From: Deltaproteobacteria bacterium
GTDB lineage: Bacteria; Desulfobacterota; Desulfarculia; Adiutricales; Adiutricaceae
Length of the DNA: 64,000 bases
Reading direction: 5' to 3'
NCBI GenBank assembly: GCA_031279515.1
Contig: JAITII010000048.1
Span: 1 to 64,000 of the forward strand
Below the pieces are notes generated by a model. The model saw only the letters and a list, made by a program, of their open reading frames with translations, had not been told where the DNA came from and searched no databases. The position numbers were made by a program, and so were the translations under genes. Positions 439 through 25,080 of this stretch are shown here, in pieces. Each line of letters opens with the position of its first letter. The first letter of the stretch is position 1.

Positions 439-740
439 AACGTCAAAAGGCTAACGCAGCCCAAATAAGTTTTTACTGAAAGCTGCAACATAATATGTGT
501 CATCATTATATTCTACCGTGTAAATGATGACTTCTAATTCAGCCAGAATTAATTTTAAGGAAAGTTGTTGGTGAGTTCGTCTATTTTTTAGAACTACAAT
601 TCTCAGATATACCTTTGAACCTGGTACGATCTTCAACATATTTGATTGCAAATGTGTTATATAGTATCTTTTCAGTCAAAGAATAAAGTATTTTAAGTTG
701 TAAAAAAAGGAATGAAGAATAACAATTTTGGTTAGTAAAC

Positions 741-2588
741 ATGATCCAACTGTCAATCGAACAAAAACAAATTGTAGAGCATATAGATGGAGCATTACTT
801 GTAAAGGCTGGTCCAGGCAGTGGTAAAACTCGCGTTTTGACAGAACGGGTCAAGATGTTGCTTACAAAGAAAAAGCGCGGCAAAGTATTAGCATTAACTT
901 TTAGTAATATGGCAGCAGATGAGATGCGTTTGAGATTGGAAATGGATACTGAACTGAGTGATTCTTTAAAACGTGCACATGTGAGTACCATTCACTCATT
1001 TTGTCTTGATCTAGTTCAATCTAGAGGTTATCTAATCGGCTTACGTCCTGAAGTGTCTCTTCTTGAAAAGGAAGATGATCGCAGAGGGCTTTTGCGGGAT
1101 TTATTTATAAATGAACCCACTCTCTTAGAAATATCAAATAACCAGAAGAAATCTAATGACTTTATTTCAGAATGCTTAGCTACAATTTCTGAGCAAAAAA
1201 GGAAACTAATTTCTCCACAAGATTCAGACATTGAAGAACCATTTCCGAGCATATACAAAAAATACAATGATTTATTAGCTGCTCAGAATTCTATGGATTA
1301 TGATGATATACTTTTTTTTACATATCGAATACTTATGGAAAATTTTAATCTTGCCCAGCTCTATACTACAGAATACCGCTATATTTGCATAGATGAAGCA
1401 CAAGACTTGAATAAAGCTCAGTATCGTGTAATTCAGGCTCTTTGTAGAAATACTTTCAATAATATTATGATGGTAGGTGACGATTATCAATCTATATATG
1501 CGTTTATTGGTTCAAGTAGTAAATATATGACTGATTTTTTTGTTCAAGACTTCAGTCCAACAATTTACACCTTGGACGAAAATTTCCGTTCTGCAGAAAA
1601 TATAATGCAGTTTGCAAATACTTTAGTGGGAATTACCAATGATATTTCTCACTATCATTATAAAGGATATCTTGAAATTAATGGTTTTGAAAATGAAATA
1701 GAAGAGGCAAAGGATATTATTTCTAAGATCCGTTATTTAATTCACAATAAGCAAGATGAAATTGAAGGCGAATTAACATATGACAAAATTGCCATTATAG
1801 CCAGAAATAAATATGTTTTCTCAAATATTGAATCAGAACTGCAAGGTGCAAGAATACCTTTTTATTACAGGAAGAATACTTCAGGTATTTTTTTTGAAAC
1901 AGATTTTATGAAAGCCTTTGACTTTATTTTACGCTTGATAATTAATCCCTTTGATTTATATCATAAGAGATTACTTTGTAAATTAACTGGCAAAAAAACT
2001 ATAGAACCTAAGATTAATGAAAATATACTTGAAACGATTAATGATCTATTATCTAATAGCGCCTTTGAATGGTTAAGCGAATGTATTAAAGGTATAGAGC
2101 CTGAAACTAAGCTAAACTTTGATAATGTTATAAATATTTTAAACGATTATATCCCAAATTCATTGCCAGATGATGACAGATACTTGCTTCAGCAAGATAT
2201 TTTTGAGCTGGCAACACATTGGAAACATTATAAACATCGCGTGCCTTCTGAAAATAGAACCTTAGTTTCTTTTCGCCATGCAATAGCATTGGGTAAAACT
2301 CAAAAAAACGAAACTAATGAAGGAGTTGCCTTATTAACTGCTCATATGTCTAAAGGTTTAGAATTTGAAGTAGTATTTATAATCGGTTTATCCGATGGAA
2401 CGTTCCCTGATTATCGCGCTATACGCAGCGGTGAAGAAGCTATAGTGCAGGAAAAAAATAATTTGTATGTTGCCGTTACTCGCGCAAAAAGGCAGTGCTA
2501 CCTTTCCTATCCAAAATTCAAACAAATGCCCTGGGGTGATTGCAAATGGCAAGAGCCTTCTCGTTTTATTAAATTACTTGAATCTTGA
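741..2588 (+). CDS. UvrD/Rep-family superfamily I DNA helicase
   Basis: Walker A GPGSGKTRVL, motif Ia ALTFSNMAADEM, DEAQD, GDDYQSIYAF, LDENFRS, LLTAHMSKGLEFEVVFI, LYVAVTRAK. Confidence 0.93.
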   Translation: MIQLSIEQKQIVEHIDGALLVKAGPGSGKTRVLTERVKMLLTKKKRGKVLALTFSNMAADEMRLRLEMDTELSDSLKRAHVSTIHSFCLDLVQSRGYLIGLRPEVSLLEKEDDRRGLLRDLFINEPTLLEISNNQKKSNDFISECLATISEQKRKLISPQDSDIEEPFPSIYKKYNDLLAAQNSMDYDDILFFTYRILMENFNLAQLYTTEYRYICIDEAQDLNKAQYRVIQALCRNTFNNIMMVGDDYQSIYAFIGSSSKYMTDFFVQDFSPTIYTLDENFRSAENIMQFANTLVGITNDISHYHYKGYLEINGFENEIEEAKDIISKIRYLIHNKQDEIEGELTYDKIAIIARNKYVFSNIESELQGARIPFYYRKNTSGIFFETDFMKAFDFILRLIINPFDLYHKRLLCKLTGKKTIEPKINENILETINDLLSNSAFEWLSECIKGIEPETKLNFDNVINILNDYIPNSLPDDDRYLLQQDIFELATHWKHYKHRVPSENRTLVSFRHAIALGKTQKNETNEGVALLTAHMSKGLEFEVVFIIGLSDGTFPDYRAIRSGEEAIVQEKNNLYVAVTRAKRQCYLSYPKFKQMPWGDCKWQEPSRFIKLLES

Positions 2589-7733: not shown

Positions 7734-9027
7734 CCAAACTTTGAAATTAGGCTAAAAGCCCTCTAATTTTGTAAAAGGGCCTATAAACTCCCAGAAAATT
7801 ATGGAGCCTGTGGAACCTATTGTCCCTGGCTAACAGTAAAGCCAAGTTTAGCTATTGGCCCTATTTTCGGCTTTAATGGAATTTGCATAATCCGATTTGG
7901 GTTTTTAAGCCCTTCAGAGGCGGGAAAAAATTAGTCCTATCTAGTATTTAGCTCTCTTTTGGCTATTAGTTATAACTTTACGCAACTAGCAATTAGTTAC
8001 AGCTGCAAGCAAAAGCTACAAGCTTATATTTATTTTTTCTGCCAGCTCTATTATTTTAGGGCGTATTTAAAGGCCATTAGCTATTTCGATTTTTATCTAT
8101 ATTTACAAAGGGTCAAAATGTGCCCCCACACATGAGGGCGAGTTTTTAAGTAACAAGCTTCAGATTGGGGAAAATTAGTTTTTGGGCGCGGACCTATTTT
8201 CTTCTAGTTGTAAAGGATTTATTAGAAACTTATAAGAGACTTGTAAGACGCAAGGGCTAGTAAGCTTTAAAGGGCAAGCCCAATTGCCTGTGAAAAGAGG
8301 AGAAATATGTAAGGGCTTTAAGATTCTTACCCAAGTCTTCTAAGCTTGGCTTACAAGAGAAACCAATGAAATTTAATAGAATTTTTTTGTTTTGTAGCAT
8401 ATAATTCACCGATGGGTTGAAGTTGCGGGTTTTTGTAGTCTTTTATTAAAAGTTTTTACAAAAACGTAGGGAGCTCTTCCTTATAATTTCCTTATATTGC
8501 CTCTAAGTTGGTTGTTATTGTTTTTATAATTTCTATATTACTAAGATAATTTATAGATTATTGCTAAGTAATTATCTTTATAGTATATTTATATCAACAA
8601 TAAGCTTATTGAATGTTTTTTAGAGCAAGGGGCCTCTCAAAAAATCCAGCTTTTAGACTAAATATTAGGGTTTTTTATTAGTTGACAAAATATGGTATTA
8701 AAGGACCATTAGTAATTGCCTTGAAAGCTCAATAATTTTCGAGCATTTGTAGATTGTTTTGGGATTTTTTTTGCGTTTCCATTTTTGAGTTCTTAACTTT
8801 AGATTTTTTTAGCCCTAAGGGCTAGCATATGGTAAATTTAAATGCTACTATATGCTGTGTTTTTTCATTTTTGATCCCTTAGCCTTCAGGTTCTCGAATT
8901 TCGAGCACTTTTCCCCTTTATTTCAAGGCTTTTGTTTATGGCTAGAGTTTCCCCTTTTCCCGTTTCTTTTTTTCAAGCTATTTTTTCATTCCCACCTTTC
9001 ATTGACCTTAAATTCCCGGTTTCATCA

Positions 9028-20333: not shown

Positions 20334-21250
20334 ATGCTAGTGACACTTAACAAGGGGCGCCAGACTTGCATCATAGCTAGAAGCCAGAATAAGTAATTGG
20401 AGAGCGTTTTATCGCGGTGGTCAAAGAGTTGGCAAATAAAATAATTACCTTTTAAGCAATGTAAATGTATTCTTTACGGTTTTTAAAAAGATGAGCAAGT
20501 TTTAACCCATGGAATGGCATATAAAAACGGCCACCTTTTATCTGGCACTATAAGGCCTCTGGGAGATACTAAAAATTCTCTCTTATCAAAAGCAGAAATG
20601 AATTTTAAAATTTTAAGATAGAATATGATAGTCTTTATAAACCGTAAAAAACCTTAGCTATATGTGTACTACAAACAAAAGAAATTTTCTAGTATCCGTT
20701 ATTTACTATTTTAGCCAAGGTAATAATATCCAGAGATTACAAATAGCTCTCAAAAAAACCTTAAGCGCGGGTTTTAAGAGGGCGAGCCAAAAAAGCAAAC
20801 TGTTTAATTAGCATTTTTATATTATTATATAAAAATCATGTAATTAATCAAGGGTAATGGGTAAGAGAAAGTCATTTTGCTAATTTTATCACCTAAGGCC
20901 GTCAACATCTAAAGTTTTTAATGAGCTAGTTAGTAAATGGGCGATAGATACTAAGCTAAAAATAATTTTGACTATCAACTATAAAGCTTAGGCAAAGTAA
21001 TCATGGATATTTAGGCTAATTTTCTTTAAAGAGGCAGTGCTATTTACCTGCCCAGAGCTATAGGAAGGGTTTTCCCTTGTGCTAATCTTAAAGTAGGACA
21101 AAAATGAGCCTATTTCCTTCGCTTTAAGGTTACTTAAAAAAATTTTTTGAGGTTTTTTTTAAACCCTAACCTTTTATGCTAAAATTGGTTTACAATAGAT
21201 TTTGAAGATTATGGTCCAAGCAAGTTAAATTAAGCCAAAAGGTGAAAAAT

Positions 21251-21769
21251 ATGACACAGCGGGAGCTAAATGGTCTTTTTCTTATTGTCCTTGTGGGTTT
21301 ATTGTGTTATGGAGTTATAAGTTTTAATGCCTTAAGTCTTTGGGCGCAGAGCACTAAGCGCAGTCCCCAGCCGGTCTTAACTAGCGAACAATTATTAGAA
21401 GAGCGGCGGAAAGTAAACTCTATAGTGAACGAGGAAAGAGAGAAAAATAGATTAGCCCCTCTTTCCTGGGACGATACCTTAGCGGCGGCGGCCCAAAAGC
21501 GCGCAGAAGAGTTAGGAATTCTCTTTGACCATAACCGGCCACAGGGAGGTGATTTTTCTAGCATCTTTGACGAGTATGGAATAAATACCAACGCCGCAGC
21601 TGAAAACATAGCCAATGGCCAGATAAGTGCCAGCCAAGCGATGGCTTCCTGGATGAGCTCAGATGGGCACAGGAGAAATATCTTAAATAGTAGCTATCGT
21701 CGTATGGGGGTGGGCGCGGCTTACGGCCCCAATGGCAGACTCAACTGGGTCCAGCTTTTCATCAAGTGA
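21251..21769 (+). CDS. CAP/SCP-domain secreted or membrane-anchored protein (copy 1)
   Basis: LVNEEREKNRLAPLSWDDTLAAAAQKRAEEL, DHNRPQGG, AENIANG, WMSSDGHRRNILNSSYRRMGVG. ATG 21251 matches the copy-2 start. Confidence 0.88.
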   Translation: MTQRELNGLFLIVLVGLLCYGVISFNALSLWAQSTKRSPQPVLTSEQLLEERRKVNSIVNEEREKNRLAPLSWDDTLAAAAQKRAEELGILFDHNRPQGGDFSSIFDEYGINTNAAAENIANGQISASQAMASWMSSDGHRRNILNSSYRRMGVGAAYGPNGRLNWVQLFIK

Positions 21770-22059: not shown

Positions 22060-22581
22060 ATGACAAAACGTGAGTTAAATGGTTTTTTTCTTATTACCTT
22101 TATGGGTTTATTTTGTTTTGGAGTTATTACTTTTAATGCGTTGGGCCTTTGGGCCCAGACTGCAGAAGAGAGTCCACAGCCGGTCTTATCTAGCGAACAA
22201 TTATTAGAAGAGCGGCGCAAATTAAGCTCTCTGGTGAACGAGGAAAGAAGGAAAAAAGGCTTAGCACCTCTTGCCTGGGACGATACGGTAGCAGACGCGG
22301 CACAAGTGCGCGCAGAAGAGCTAGGTACCCAGTTTCTCCATTACCGGCCTAAGGGGAGAGGTTCTTTTCTTAGTGTCCTTGAAGAGTTCGGAATAGAAAC
22401 AAGTGCCGCGGGTGAACTCTTATCCCAGGGCCATATAAATGCCCAGGGCGTGATGGAGGAATGGATGAGCTCGGAGCCAGACAGAGACACTATTTTAAGT
22501 GAACGCCATGAACGCATAGGGGTGGGCGCTTCTTACGGCCCCGATGGGAATCTCAACTGGGAAATGCTTTTCGTTAATTGA
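22060..22581 (+). CDS. CAP/SCP-domain protein (diverged copy 2)
   Basis: Strong similarity to 21251-21769 (MTKRELNGFFLI..., EQLLEERRKL, WMSSEPDRDTIL) but GHRRNIL motif lost. Confidence 0.82.
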   Translation: MTKRELNGFFLITFMGLFCFGVITFNALGLWAQTAEESPQPVLSSEQLLEERRKLSSLVNEERRKKGLAPLAWDDTVADAAQVRAEELGTQFLHYRPKGRGSFLSVLEEFGIETSAAGELLSQGHINAQGVMEEWMSSEPDRDTILSERHERIGVGASYGPDGNLNWEMLFVN

Positions 22582-22749: not shown

Positions 22750-22776
22750 AAAAAAGCCGCGAAACGCGGCTTTTTT
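22750..22776. terminator. Bidirectional terminator between convergent genes
   Basis: AAAAAAGCCGCG-AAA-CGCGGCTTTTTT perfect hairpin flanked by A and T tracts. Confidence 0.9.
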
Positions 22777-22807: not shown

Positions 22808-24076
22808 TTATGAGGCCCGGGTAATATTTTTAAAGACCGGGTCTATGCGCAAGGGCCCAAAGTCCGGAGCTATGGAATAGTTCCATTCGCCGTGGAATTC
22901 TGCTGGATAGATTACCACCGCCTTTAACTCTTCCTCGGTAGGTGCCAGGGGGGTAGAAAAATGCGTGTGATCTAGCTTTAAGCCCAAGGCCATGGTGCGC
23001 ACCTGGTCATTGTGGCTTACCAGGCGGACGGTAACCTCGTGATCCCTTGTGGGCTCTTCAGCATAGCCCGTGGACACAAAGGAGAAGAGCCTTTGGCTAT
23101 TGGCGTTCCACTTGCTGGTGCCCGGAGGGTAGCGGCAGAACTCTATGGGAAGCCCTATGGAATTGGAGAGCTTTTGGAGCTCGGTCTTCCACAGGGAGTG
23201 GCGGCGCAAACCTCCCACATTGTCGGCTGTGAGCATGAGGCAGCTGGCCTCAGGAAAGAGTTCCTTGCCTTCCACCATCCACCAACCGTAGATGGAATCA
23301 GAGGTAAAGGAGGCGCTTTCATAGGAGGACCTCAAGCAGGCGGATTGACGGGCCAGCTTGGGGTCATAGATACCCCTGGGGTGCTGTCCAGCAACTAAGC
23401 TGTCAAGTCCTAAGTTAATGTTAGCTATGAAGGTGGTCTCATGGGTCTCTTCTTCGATGGTGGCTTCCTTTTTACGGGATTCCACCGAGATTATGGGTTG
23501 GTTTTCCGCCATGTGAAAGGAGACCCTGTGGCTGATGTGCCTAAATTGGGAATCCCTGTCGGGGTGGATCCGACCCTCTTCGGTCTTGCGGGTGCCCATG
23601 AGGTTGTAGCCGTTTTTGCGGAGGATTTGGGCCACCTTTTCGTGACTTATCCTGTGATGGGCTGCGGTGAGCTCCTGGGCCAGGTAGCGGGTACTCTTGC
23701 AGGTCCAAAGAATTGGAGGATCGTTTTCTCCTTTGGTGGTTTCCCGCATGAGTTCCTCTAAAGAGGCCCAGATGCCCGGGTCCACGCGCTCAACCCGGGG
23801 CCTTCCGGCCCCGGCTCGGCGAGTTTTACCGGGCTCCAAGGGGGCTTCATCCAATTCCTTGATACCCTTGGTGATGGTAACCCTAGATAGGCCGCAAGCT
23901 CTGCTCACCATGGAAATACCGCGCCGTCCAATACGCTTGGCTTCGCCTGCAGCCACCAGGCGGCGTTCCCGCTCGCCAAGGTGAGGCCAGACATTTAAGA
24001 ACATTTTGGTTAAGGCAGATTCTGTTTCGATCATGGTAAATTTCCGCTTACAGTAATTGGTGTATTTTGTTTCCAA
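22808..24076 (-). CDS. ISAzo13-family transposase-like protein with degenerate DDE motifs
   Basis: RLVAAGEAKRIGRRGISMVSRACGLSRVTITKGIKELDE, WTCKSTRYLAQEL, HPDRDSQFRHI, QPIISVESRKKE, LTADNVGG, PPGTSKWNANSQRLFSF. Confidence 0.85.
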   Translation of the reverse strand: METKYTNYCKRKFTMIETESALTKMFLNVWPHLGERERRLVAAGEAKRIGRRGISMVSRACGLSRVTITKGIKELDEAPLEPGKTRRAGAGRPRVERVDPGIWASLEELMRETTKGENDPPILWTCKSTRYLAQELTAAHHRISHEKVAQILRKNGYNLMGTRKTEEGRIHPDRDSQFRHISHRVSFHMAENQPIISVESRKKEATIEEETHETTFIANINLGLDSLVAGQHPRGIYDPKLARQSACLRSSYESASFTSDSIYGWWMVEGKELFPEASCLMLTADNVGGLRRHSLWKTELQKLSNSIGLPIEFCRYPPGTSKWNANSQRLFSFVSTGYAEEPTRDHEVTVRLVSHNDQVRTMALGLKLDHTHFSTPLAPTEEELKAVVIYPAEFHGEWNYSIAPDFGPLRIDPVFKNITRAS

Positions 24077-24207
24077 TAAACCCTGGCTAGAGGACTTTAA
24101 GGAGGGGCTAAGGGCCCAGAGGAGTATTTAAAATAATAGCATAGATAGACACCGGGATAAATTAACCTAAATTTTAAATTGCCCCTTAAAGTCCTTAGTT
24201 AGCCTTT

Positions 24208-24654
24208 TTAGATGGCAGCTAAGACTCCCTCACCCCAGCTCTTGATGGCCGCAACGGATCCGTCTGGGTCTCCGTTTATCTTGAGCTTGCCGCCCACCAC
24301 CGTAGAGCCCAGTTCCGTGAGCTTGTCGGTGATGGCGTCGACTGCGCCGCAAAAGTACTTGTAGTCTTCGTCTCCACACCCGAAGACCGCCGTTTTGACC
24401 CCAGAGGCCCCAATCTTGTCAAAGGATTCGAAAAGGGGGATGAAGTCTTCCTGGAGCTCTATTTCATCATCGCCCCAGGTGGAGCAGCCGAAGAGCACCA
24501 GATCTTTACCGGCGCAAAGGCCGTCAGCTGAGACGTCGCCTGCCTTGGCCTTGTTGACGGTGTGCCCGGCCGCCTTGGCCTGGGCTTCTAACTGGCCCGC
24601 CACCCACTCGGTGTTGCCAGTTTGGGATCCATATACGATTAAGATATTTGCCAT
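24208..24654 (-). CDS. Flavodoxin
   Basis: MANILIVYGSQTGNTEWVAGQL, GCSTWGDDEIELQEDFIPLFE, AVFGCGDEDYKYFCGAVDAI; internal ATG at 24654 is the likely start rather than 24786. Confidence 0.95.
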   Translation of the reverse strand: MANILIVYGSQTGNTEWVAGQLEAQAKAAGHTVNKAKAGDVSADGLCAGKDLVLFGCSTWGDDEIELQEDFIPLFESFDKIGASGVKTAVFGCGDEDYKYFCGAVDAITDKLTELGSTVVGGKLKINGDPDGSVAAIKSWGEGVLAAI

Positions 24655-24759: not shown

Positions 24760-24783
24760 ATTATCATAATTGATTCTCAATTG
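24760..24783 (-). promoter_or_regulatory. Possible Fur-like box upstream of flavodoxin
   Basis: Minus strand reads CAATTGAGAATCAATTATGATAAT, AT-rich with GAGAAT/GATAAT hexamers; position about 105-130 bp upstream of the flavodoxin start. Confidence 0.35.
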
Positions 24784-25080
24784 CAATAGGGCTGTAAAGG
24801 TTTTTTTGAAGACAGGAAAATAAAATTTTTTACTAGATATTTCAGTATGTTAGCAAAAATTTGTAAGGCCCTGGCTAAGTAAATATCTAGAAAAAATAAG
24901 GACTTTGGAAAAAGAAAGTAAATTTTTTTCTGGCAAAAGATTAAAGCTTTTTATCTGGGCCAGAGCTGGCCAGAAGGGCCTAAATTGGCTCTGGTCCAAA
25001 AGGTAACAGGGGGCTAGAAGGCGCAGAGGCGCATTGTGGGGCTCTTTCTCTTCTAAAAGGCCCTGGCCCCAAAAAAGCGC

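Follow-up and report, generated by a model that had tools for sequence, protein, structure and literature searches.

A transposase-derived gene of the ISAzo13 family has lost two of its three catalytic residues but has been retained as an intact, single-copy gene directly downstream of, and co-oriented with, a flavodoxin gene in every one of the 23 genomes that hold both genes, all from one bacterial family. The part of the protein that is most conserved is the N-terminal helix-turn-helix (HTH) region rather than the former catalytic domain, and the gene thus looks like a regulator made from a transposase. On sequence evidence, the exaptation of this gene is near certain. A DNA-binding regulatory role is likely, although it is inferred from sequence without binding, expression, or phenotype data, and control of the flavodoxin locus in particular is a working guess.

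An intact ISAzo13-type gene with an altered catalytic triad

The gene was found in a stretch of 64,000 nucleotides of contig JAITII010000048.1 (GenBank assembly GCA_031279515.1), the whole of which is referred to here as the window. It lies on the minus strand, and because all orthologues start at the equivalent of the ATG at position 24034, we place the gene at 24034 to 22808, encoding 408 amino acids, rather than at the TTG start at 24076 that gave the limits in an earlier note. The protein matches Pfam PF07592 (E value of 8.6e-67; 226 bits, with a cutoff of 26.9) and the NCBIfam model NF033519, ISAzo13 family transposase (308 bits, with a cutoff of 200), over its full length. The three catalytic blocks read ISVES, LTADNVGG, and SKWNANSQRLF, whereas elements with an intact triad from 14 other loci, in other taxa, read ISVDTKKKE, ITADGGGSNG, and SKWNKIEHRLF. 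The first catalytic Asp is therefore Glu (E185, positions 23480 to 23482), and the catalytic Glu is Ser (S313, positions 23096 to 23098). The earlier note had reported these changes correctly as a lost DDE triad, but the second Asp (D271, positions 23222 to 23224) is kept in this protein, so that the loss concerns two of three residues in the window copy. In orthologues from one genus of the family, designated g7, the second Asp is Glu too.

A perfect symmetric hairpin, AAAAAAGCCGCG-AAA-CGCGGCTTTTTT, flanked by A and T runs, lies just downstream of the gene (positions 22750 to 22776) and reads by eye as a bidirectional intrinsic terminator, as the earlier note had stated, although a consensus terminator scan did not list it. 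No pair of 18-mers with 15 or more matches was found as a terminal inverted repeat within 500 bp on either side, and shuffled flanks gave best scores of 13 to 15; diverged short repeats could be missed by this search. Next to the gene are two tandem, similar genes for secreted-looking CAP/SCP-like proteins (positions 21242 to 21769 and 22060 to 22581), relatives of which lie near this locus in some other genomes.

Orthologues are intact and are found at one locus

The window genome (G000; genomes are given G numbers here) has one full-length copy and only two distant, partial paralogues. Among 98 genomes searched from genus to phylum level, full-length orthologues with 50 to 75% identity occur in 22 other genomes, all of the same family, and three more genomes have copies cut by contig ends. 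None of the 23 full-length copies, the window copy included, has an internal stop, although most pairs are far below 91% identity, and none retains the catalytic Glu, the position being occupied by S, A, C, L, Q, V, R, and other residues. Outside the family, only ISAzo13 transposases with about 34 to 42% identity were recovered, and the 14 examined keep the intact triad. The four nearest records, with 70 to 77% identity, are Deltaproteobacteria metagenome-assembled genomes (MAGs) whose isolate names (Gx485, Nm470, and Pcl387) look like termite gut samples. A termite origin, and any link to Candidatus Adiutrix, a genus known to have co-diversified with termites (PMC10281810), is our inference.

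In all 23 genomes that hold both genes, the flavodoxin gene (PF00258, E value of 1.4e-31; positions 24208 to 24654 on the minus strand in the window) is immediately upstream and co-oriented, with 62 to 543 bp between the two genes. In contrast, the next genes differ, with nuo on either side, cyd, cit, mod, and radical SAM neighbors that come and go. Nine genomes lack both genes. Only G009 has the gene without flavodoxin, while G001 and G024 have contig breaks at this position. Two genomes of another genus, g6, have the flavodoxin gene without the transposase-derived gene, in another neighborhood (G006 and G026). The genomes appear to be metagenome assembled, and their incompleteness limits claims of absence. 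Pairwise divergence of the gene and of flavodoxin correlates at an r value of 0.82, against a maximum of 0.32 in 2,000 permutations, consistent with vertical inheritance at a fixed locus.

Selection is focused on the HTH region

With the NG86 method, dN/dS is 0.07 to 0.19 in the closest pairs for which it could be computed and 0.005 to 0.07 for the HTH, while dS is saturated for most other pairs. Interestingly, the pattern of conservation is inverted relative to that of transposases with an intact triad. Mean pairwise identity among orthologues is 0.857 in the N-terminal HTH region (residues 1 to 92, positions 23759 to 24034; 0.91 in its core), 0.576 in the middle region (residues 93 to 184, positions 23483 to 23758), which contains the WTCKSTR block, and 0.514 in the catalytic region, whereas the values for intact-triad elements are 0.437 (0.44 to 0.50 for the HTH), 0.579, and 0.634, respectively. 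The HTH of the window protein is 74 to 96% identical to those of its orthologues. This inversion is the strongest single sign that DNA binding, not catalysis, is under selection. However, the catalytic domain is still conserved at 51%, so it does something.

The AlphaFold model gives four confident helices in residues 2 to 62, with pLDDT mostly above 90, and a second predicted helical unit in the middle region (residues 115 to 124 and 131 to 140), but it is poor outside the HTH, with a mean pLDDT of 61.5. A search of solved structures by sequence gave nothing relevant, and a fold search with this low-confidence model gave only a weak hit to the Mos1 transposase (E value of 0.005, TM of about 0.2), from which we draw nothing.

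Regulatory context of the locus

The intergenic region between flavodoxin and the transposase-derived gene (positions 24035 to 24207, minus strand) contains a promoter-like segment (ATCCCGGTG...TATTAT). The promoter-spacer sequence CATCCCGGTGCCGTTATATT is conserved in genomes G002, G012, and G005, with a weaker version in the window, and as a near-full-length match it occurs at only this promoter in the five genomes searched. This suits autoregulation but is not proof of it. As a regulon motif the sequence was rejected, since only the gene's own promoter matched over the full length with at most 1 mismatch and shorter versions matched at few more places than a control pattern.

Upstream of flavodoxin, a TATTGCAATTGAGAATCA-type box is present in 23 of 23 cases examined and is near invariant across the family; its core in the window is ATTGCAATTGAGAATCA (positions 24771 to 24787, minus strand), the exact match being unique in the genome. 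The box resembles a Fur box and is also present in genus g6, which lacks the transposase-derived gene. It therefore predates or is independent of this protein and was rejected as specific evidence for a binding site of it, and flavodoxin can be controlled without the gene.

Further catalytically dead groups in the same genomes

Three further catalytically dead ISAzo13 groups sit at fixed loci in these genomes; we refer to the flavodoxin-linked genes as group A and to the others as groups B, C, and D. These groups were chosen after the hits had been seen. Group B proteins have a conserved HTH and a catalytic half without the triad, and their genes lie upstream of and co-oriented with PLP synthase (cysK-like), JAB peptidase, ThiS, and ThiF-rhodanese genes, a cysteine biosynthesis operon, in the six genomes whose contigs extend far enough. 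Two further copies occur in G028 and G024, and in G028 a very long low-complexity insert separates the HTH from the rest. The copy of the window genome is on contig C78 (positions 575 to 1612, plus strand). Group C, with the motifs VGRGGCSF and PGTSRWDP, comprises one protein in each of six genomes of genus g8, downstream of chemotaxis-like genes for a CheA-like kinase and response regulator. Group D is found in four genomes of genus g7, downstream of a glucan phosphorylase gene, and has lost the HTH. Each group is one side of a branch with an SH-aLRT value of 100, and group C falls among elements with an intact triad. AU tests rejected neither groups A and B (P value of 0.79) nor groups A and C (P value of 0.23) as one clade, so that a single exaptation and separate exaptations both remain possible. 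The window genome also contains an intact open reading frame of 317 to 329 amino acids that keeps only the degenerate C-terminal half of an ISAzo13 transposase, between a TonB receptor-like gene and a formylglycine enzyme-like gene (contig C39, positions 7845 to 8831, minus strand; the same gene as positions 1471 to 2424 of a second record, L003).

Origin and possible role of the gene

The explanation that we favor, with reasonably good confidence, is that the gene is an exapted (domesticated) ISAzo13 transposase. An ISAzo13 element came to lie next to an iron/redox-type flavodoxin gene in an ancestor of this bacterial family, after genus g6 split off or with subsequent loss there, lost mobility and catalysis, and has since been inherited vertically as a single-copy host gene. 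The most likely mechanism is sequence-specific DNA binding by the frozen N-terminal HTH, together with the second helical unit, with the dead RNase H-like domain serving as a dimerization or scaffold module. The protein would act as a transcription regulator that controls its own promoter and, more tentatively, the adjacent flavodoxin (electron transfer) locus. DNA binding, dimerization, autoregulation, and the targets are all inferred. The earlier note had proposed retention as a DNA-binding protein or regulator, and this interpretation is supported, although the regulatory function as such is inferred. The two outcomes that it had named as contrary to its proposal, degraded orthologues elsewhere and multiple recently transposed copies, were not observed.

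Other explanations appear less likely. The dead protein might be a dominant-negative silencer that still binds the ends of active ISAzo13 elements and blocks their transposition, and indeed several genomes of the family carry ISAzo13 copies with an intact DDE triad, some with an HTH 58 to 59% identical to this one. However, the window genome has no intact-triad copy, and yet the HTH is frozen across genera while the HTHs of intact elements differ widely. Moreover, the gene is present both in the genome with the most ISAzo13 matches (G014, with 31) and in genomes with very few (G016 and G029), and the fixed pairing with flavodoxin would be unexplained. We consider this reading unlikely. A nucleoid-type or multisite architectural DNA-binding protein, for which the flavodoxin neighborhood is incidental, is similarly doubtful. 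A hyperconserved HTH fits many unchangeable target sites, only one gene neighbor is constant, and no regulon motif was found, but adjacency and co-occurrence with flavodoxin persist through rearrangement of everything else.

There is little to recommend the remaining two possibilities. An enzyme using rearranged acidic residues, for example, a host nuclease or recombinase, might be suggested by the retention of D271 in this copy, the acidic E185, and the conserved GTSKWN and RLFSF blocks, but the second Asp is Glu in genus g7, the third acidic residue is missing in all orthologues, and the catalytic domain is the least conserved part of the protein. An ordinary decaying insertion sequence that happens to be intact is the least likely of all. 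The protein is recognizably a transposase, and decayed ISAzo13 fragments with stops exist elsewhere in the family, but 23 intact orthologues at one locus, low dN/dS values, and a near-invariant HTH contradict this reading.

It is about as likely as not that this one family of bacteria has repeatedly turned ISAzo13 transposases into locus-bound host proteins, in which case groups A to D would include the first described DDE transposase-derived regulator family in prokaryotes. We found no described case of an ISAzo13- or DDE transposase-derived regulator in bacteria in the open-access papers searched. A natural series exists here within one family, consisting of elements with an intact triad, decaying copies, and at least four catalytically dead fixed-locus groups, so the steps of transposase-to-regulator evolution can be tested directly. 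It also warns that genes annotated automatically as ISAzo13 family transposase can be conserved host genes.

Comparison with known systems

The protein shares full-length homology, domain order, and the conserved blocks around the former active site with the insertion sequence transposases of the ISAzo13 family (PF07592 and NF033519). It differs from them in the replacement of the catalytic Glu and the first Asp, the absence of detected terminal inverted repeats, its single copy and fixed locus, and the concentration of conservation in the HTH instead of the catalytic domain. Bacterial HTH regulators derived from mobile genetic elements, such as SfsB from Mu Ner (reviewed in PMC8987985), likewise represent a mobile element DNA-binding protein recruited to host regulation, but Ner is itself a regulator, and the parts of that review consulted name no DDE transposase-derived regulator in prokaryotes. 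Conversion of DNA transposases into transcription factors is well documented in animals and plants. In eukaryotic transcription factors derived from DNA transposons (ZBED6, PMC2780926; metazoan survey, PMC10027918), a transposase DNA-binding domain is reused, catalysis is lost or irrelevant, and the gene is inherited vertically under selection; the present gene differs in being bacterial, of ISAzo13/IS630-like origin, with the full dead catalytic domain retained, and linked to one metabolic gene. In the TldR proteins, which are RNA-guided bacterial transcription factors (PMC13418256), a transposon protein was also turned into a bacterial regulator, but TldR descends from a TnpB nuclease, while the protein described here descends from a DDE transposase with an HTH.
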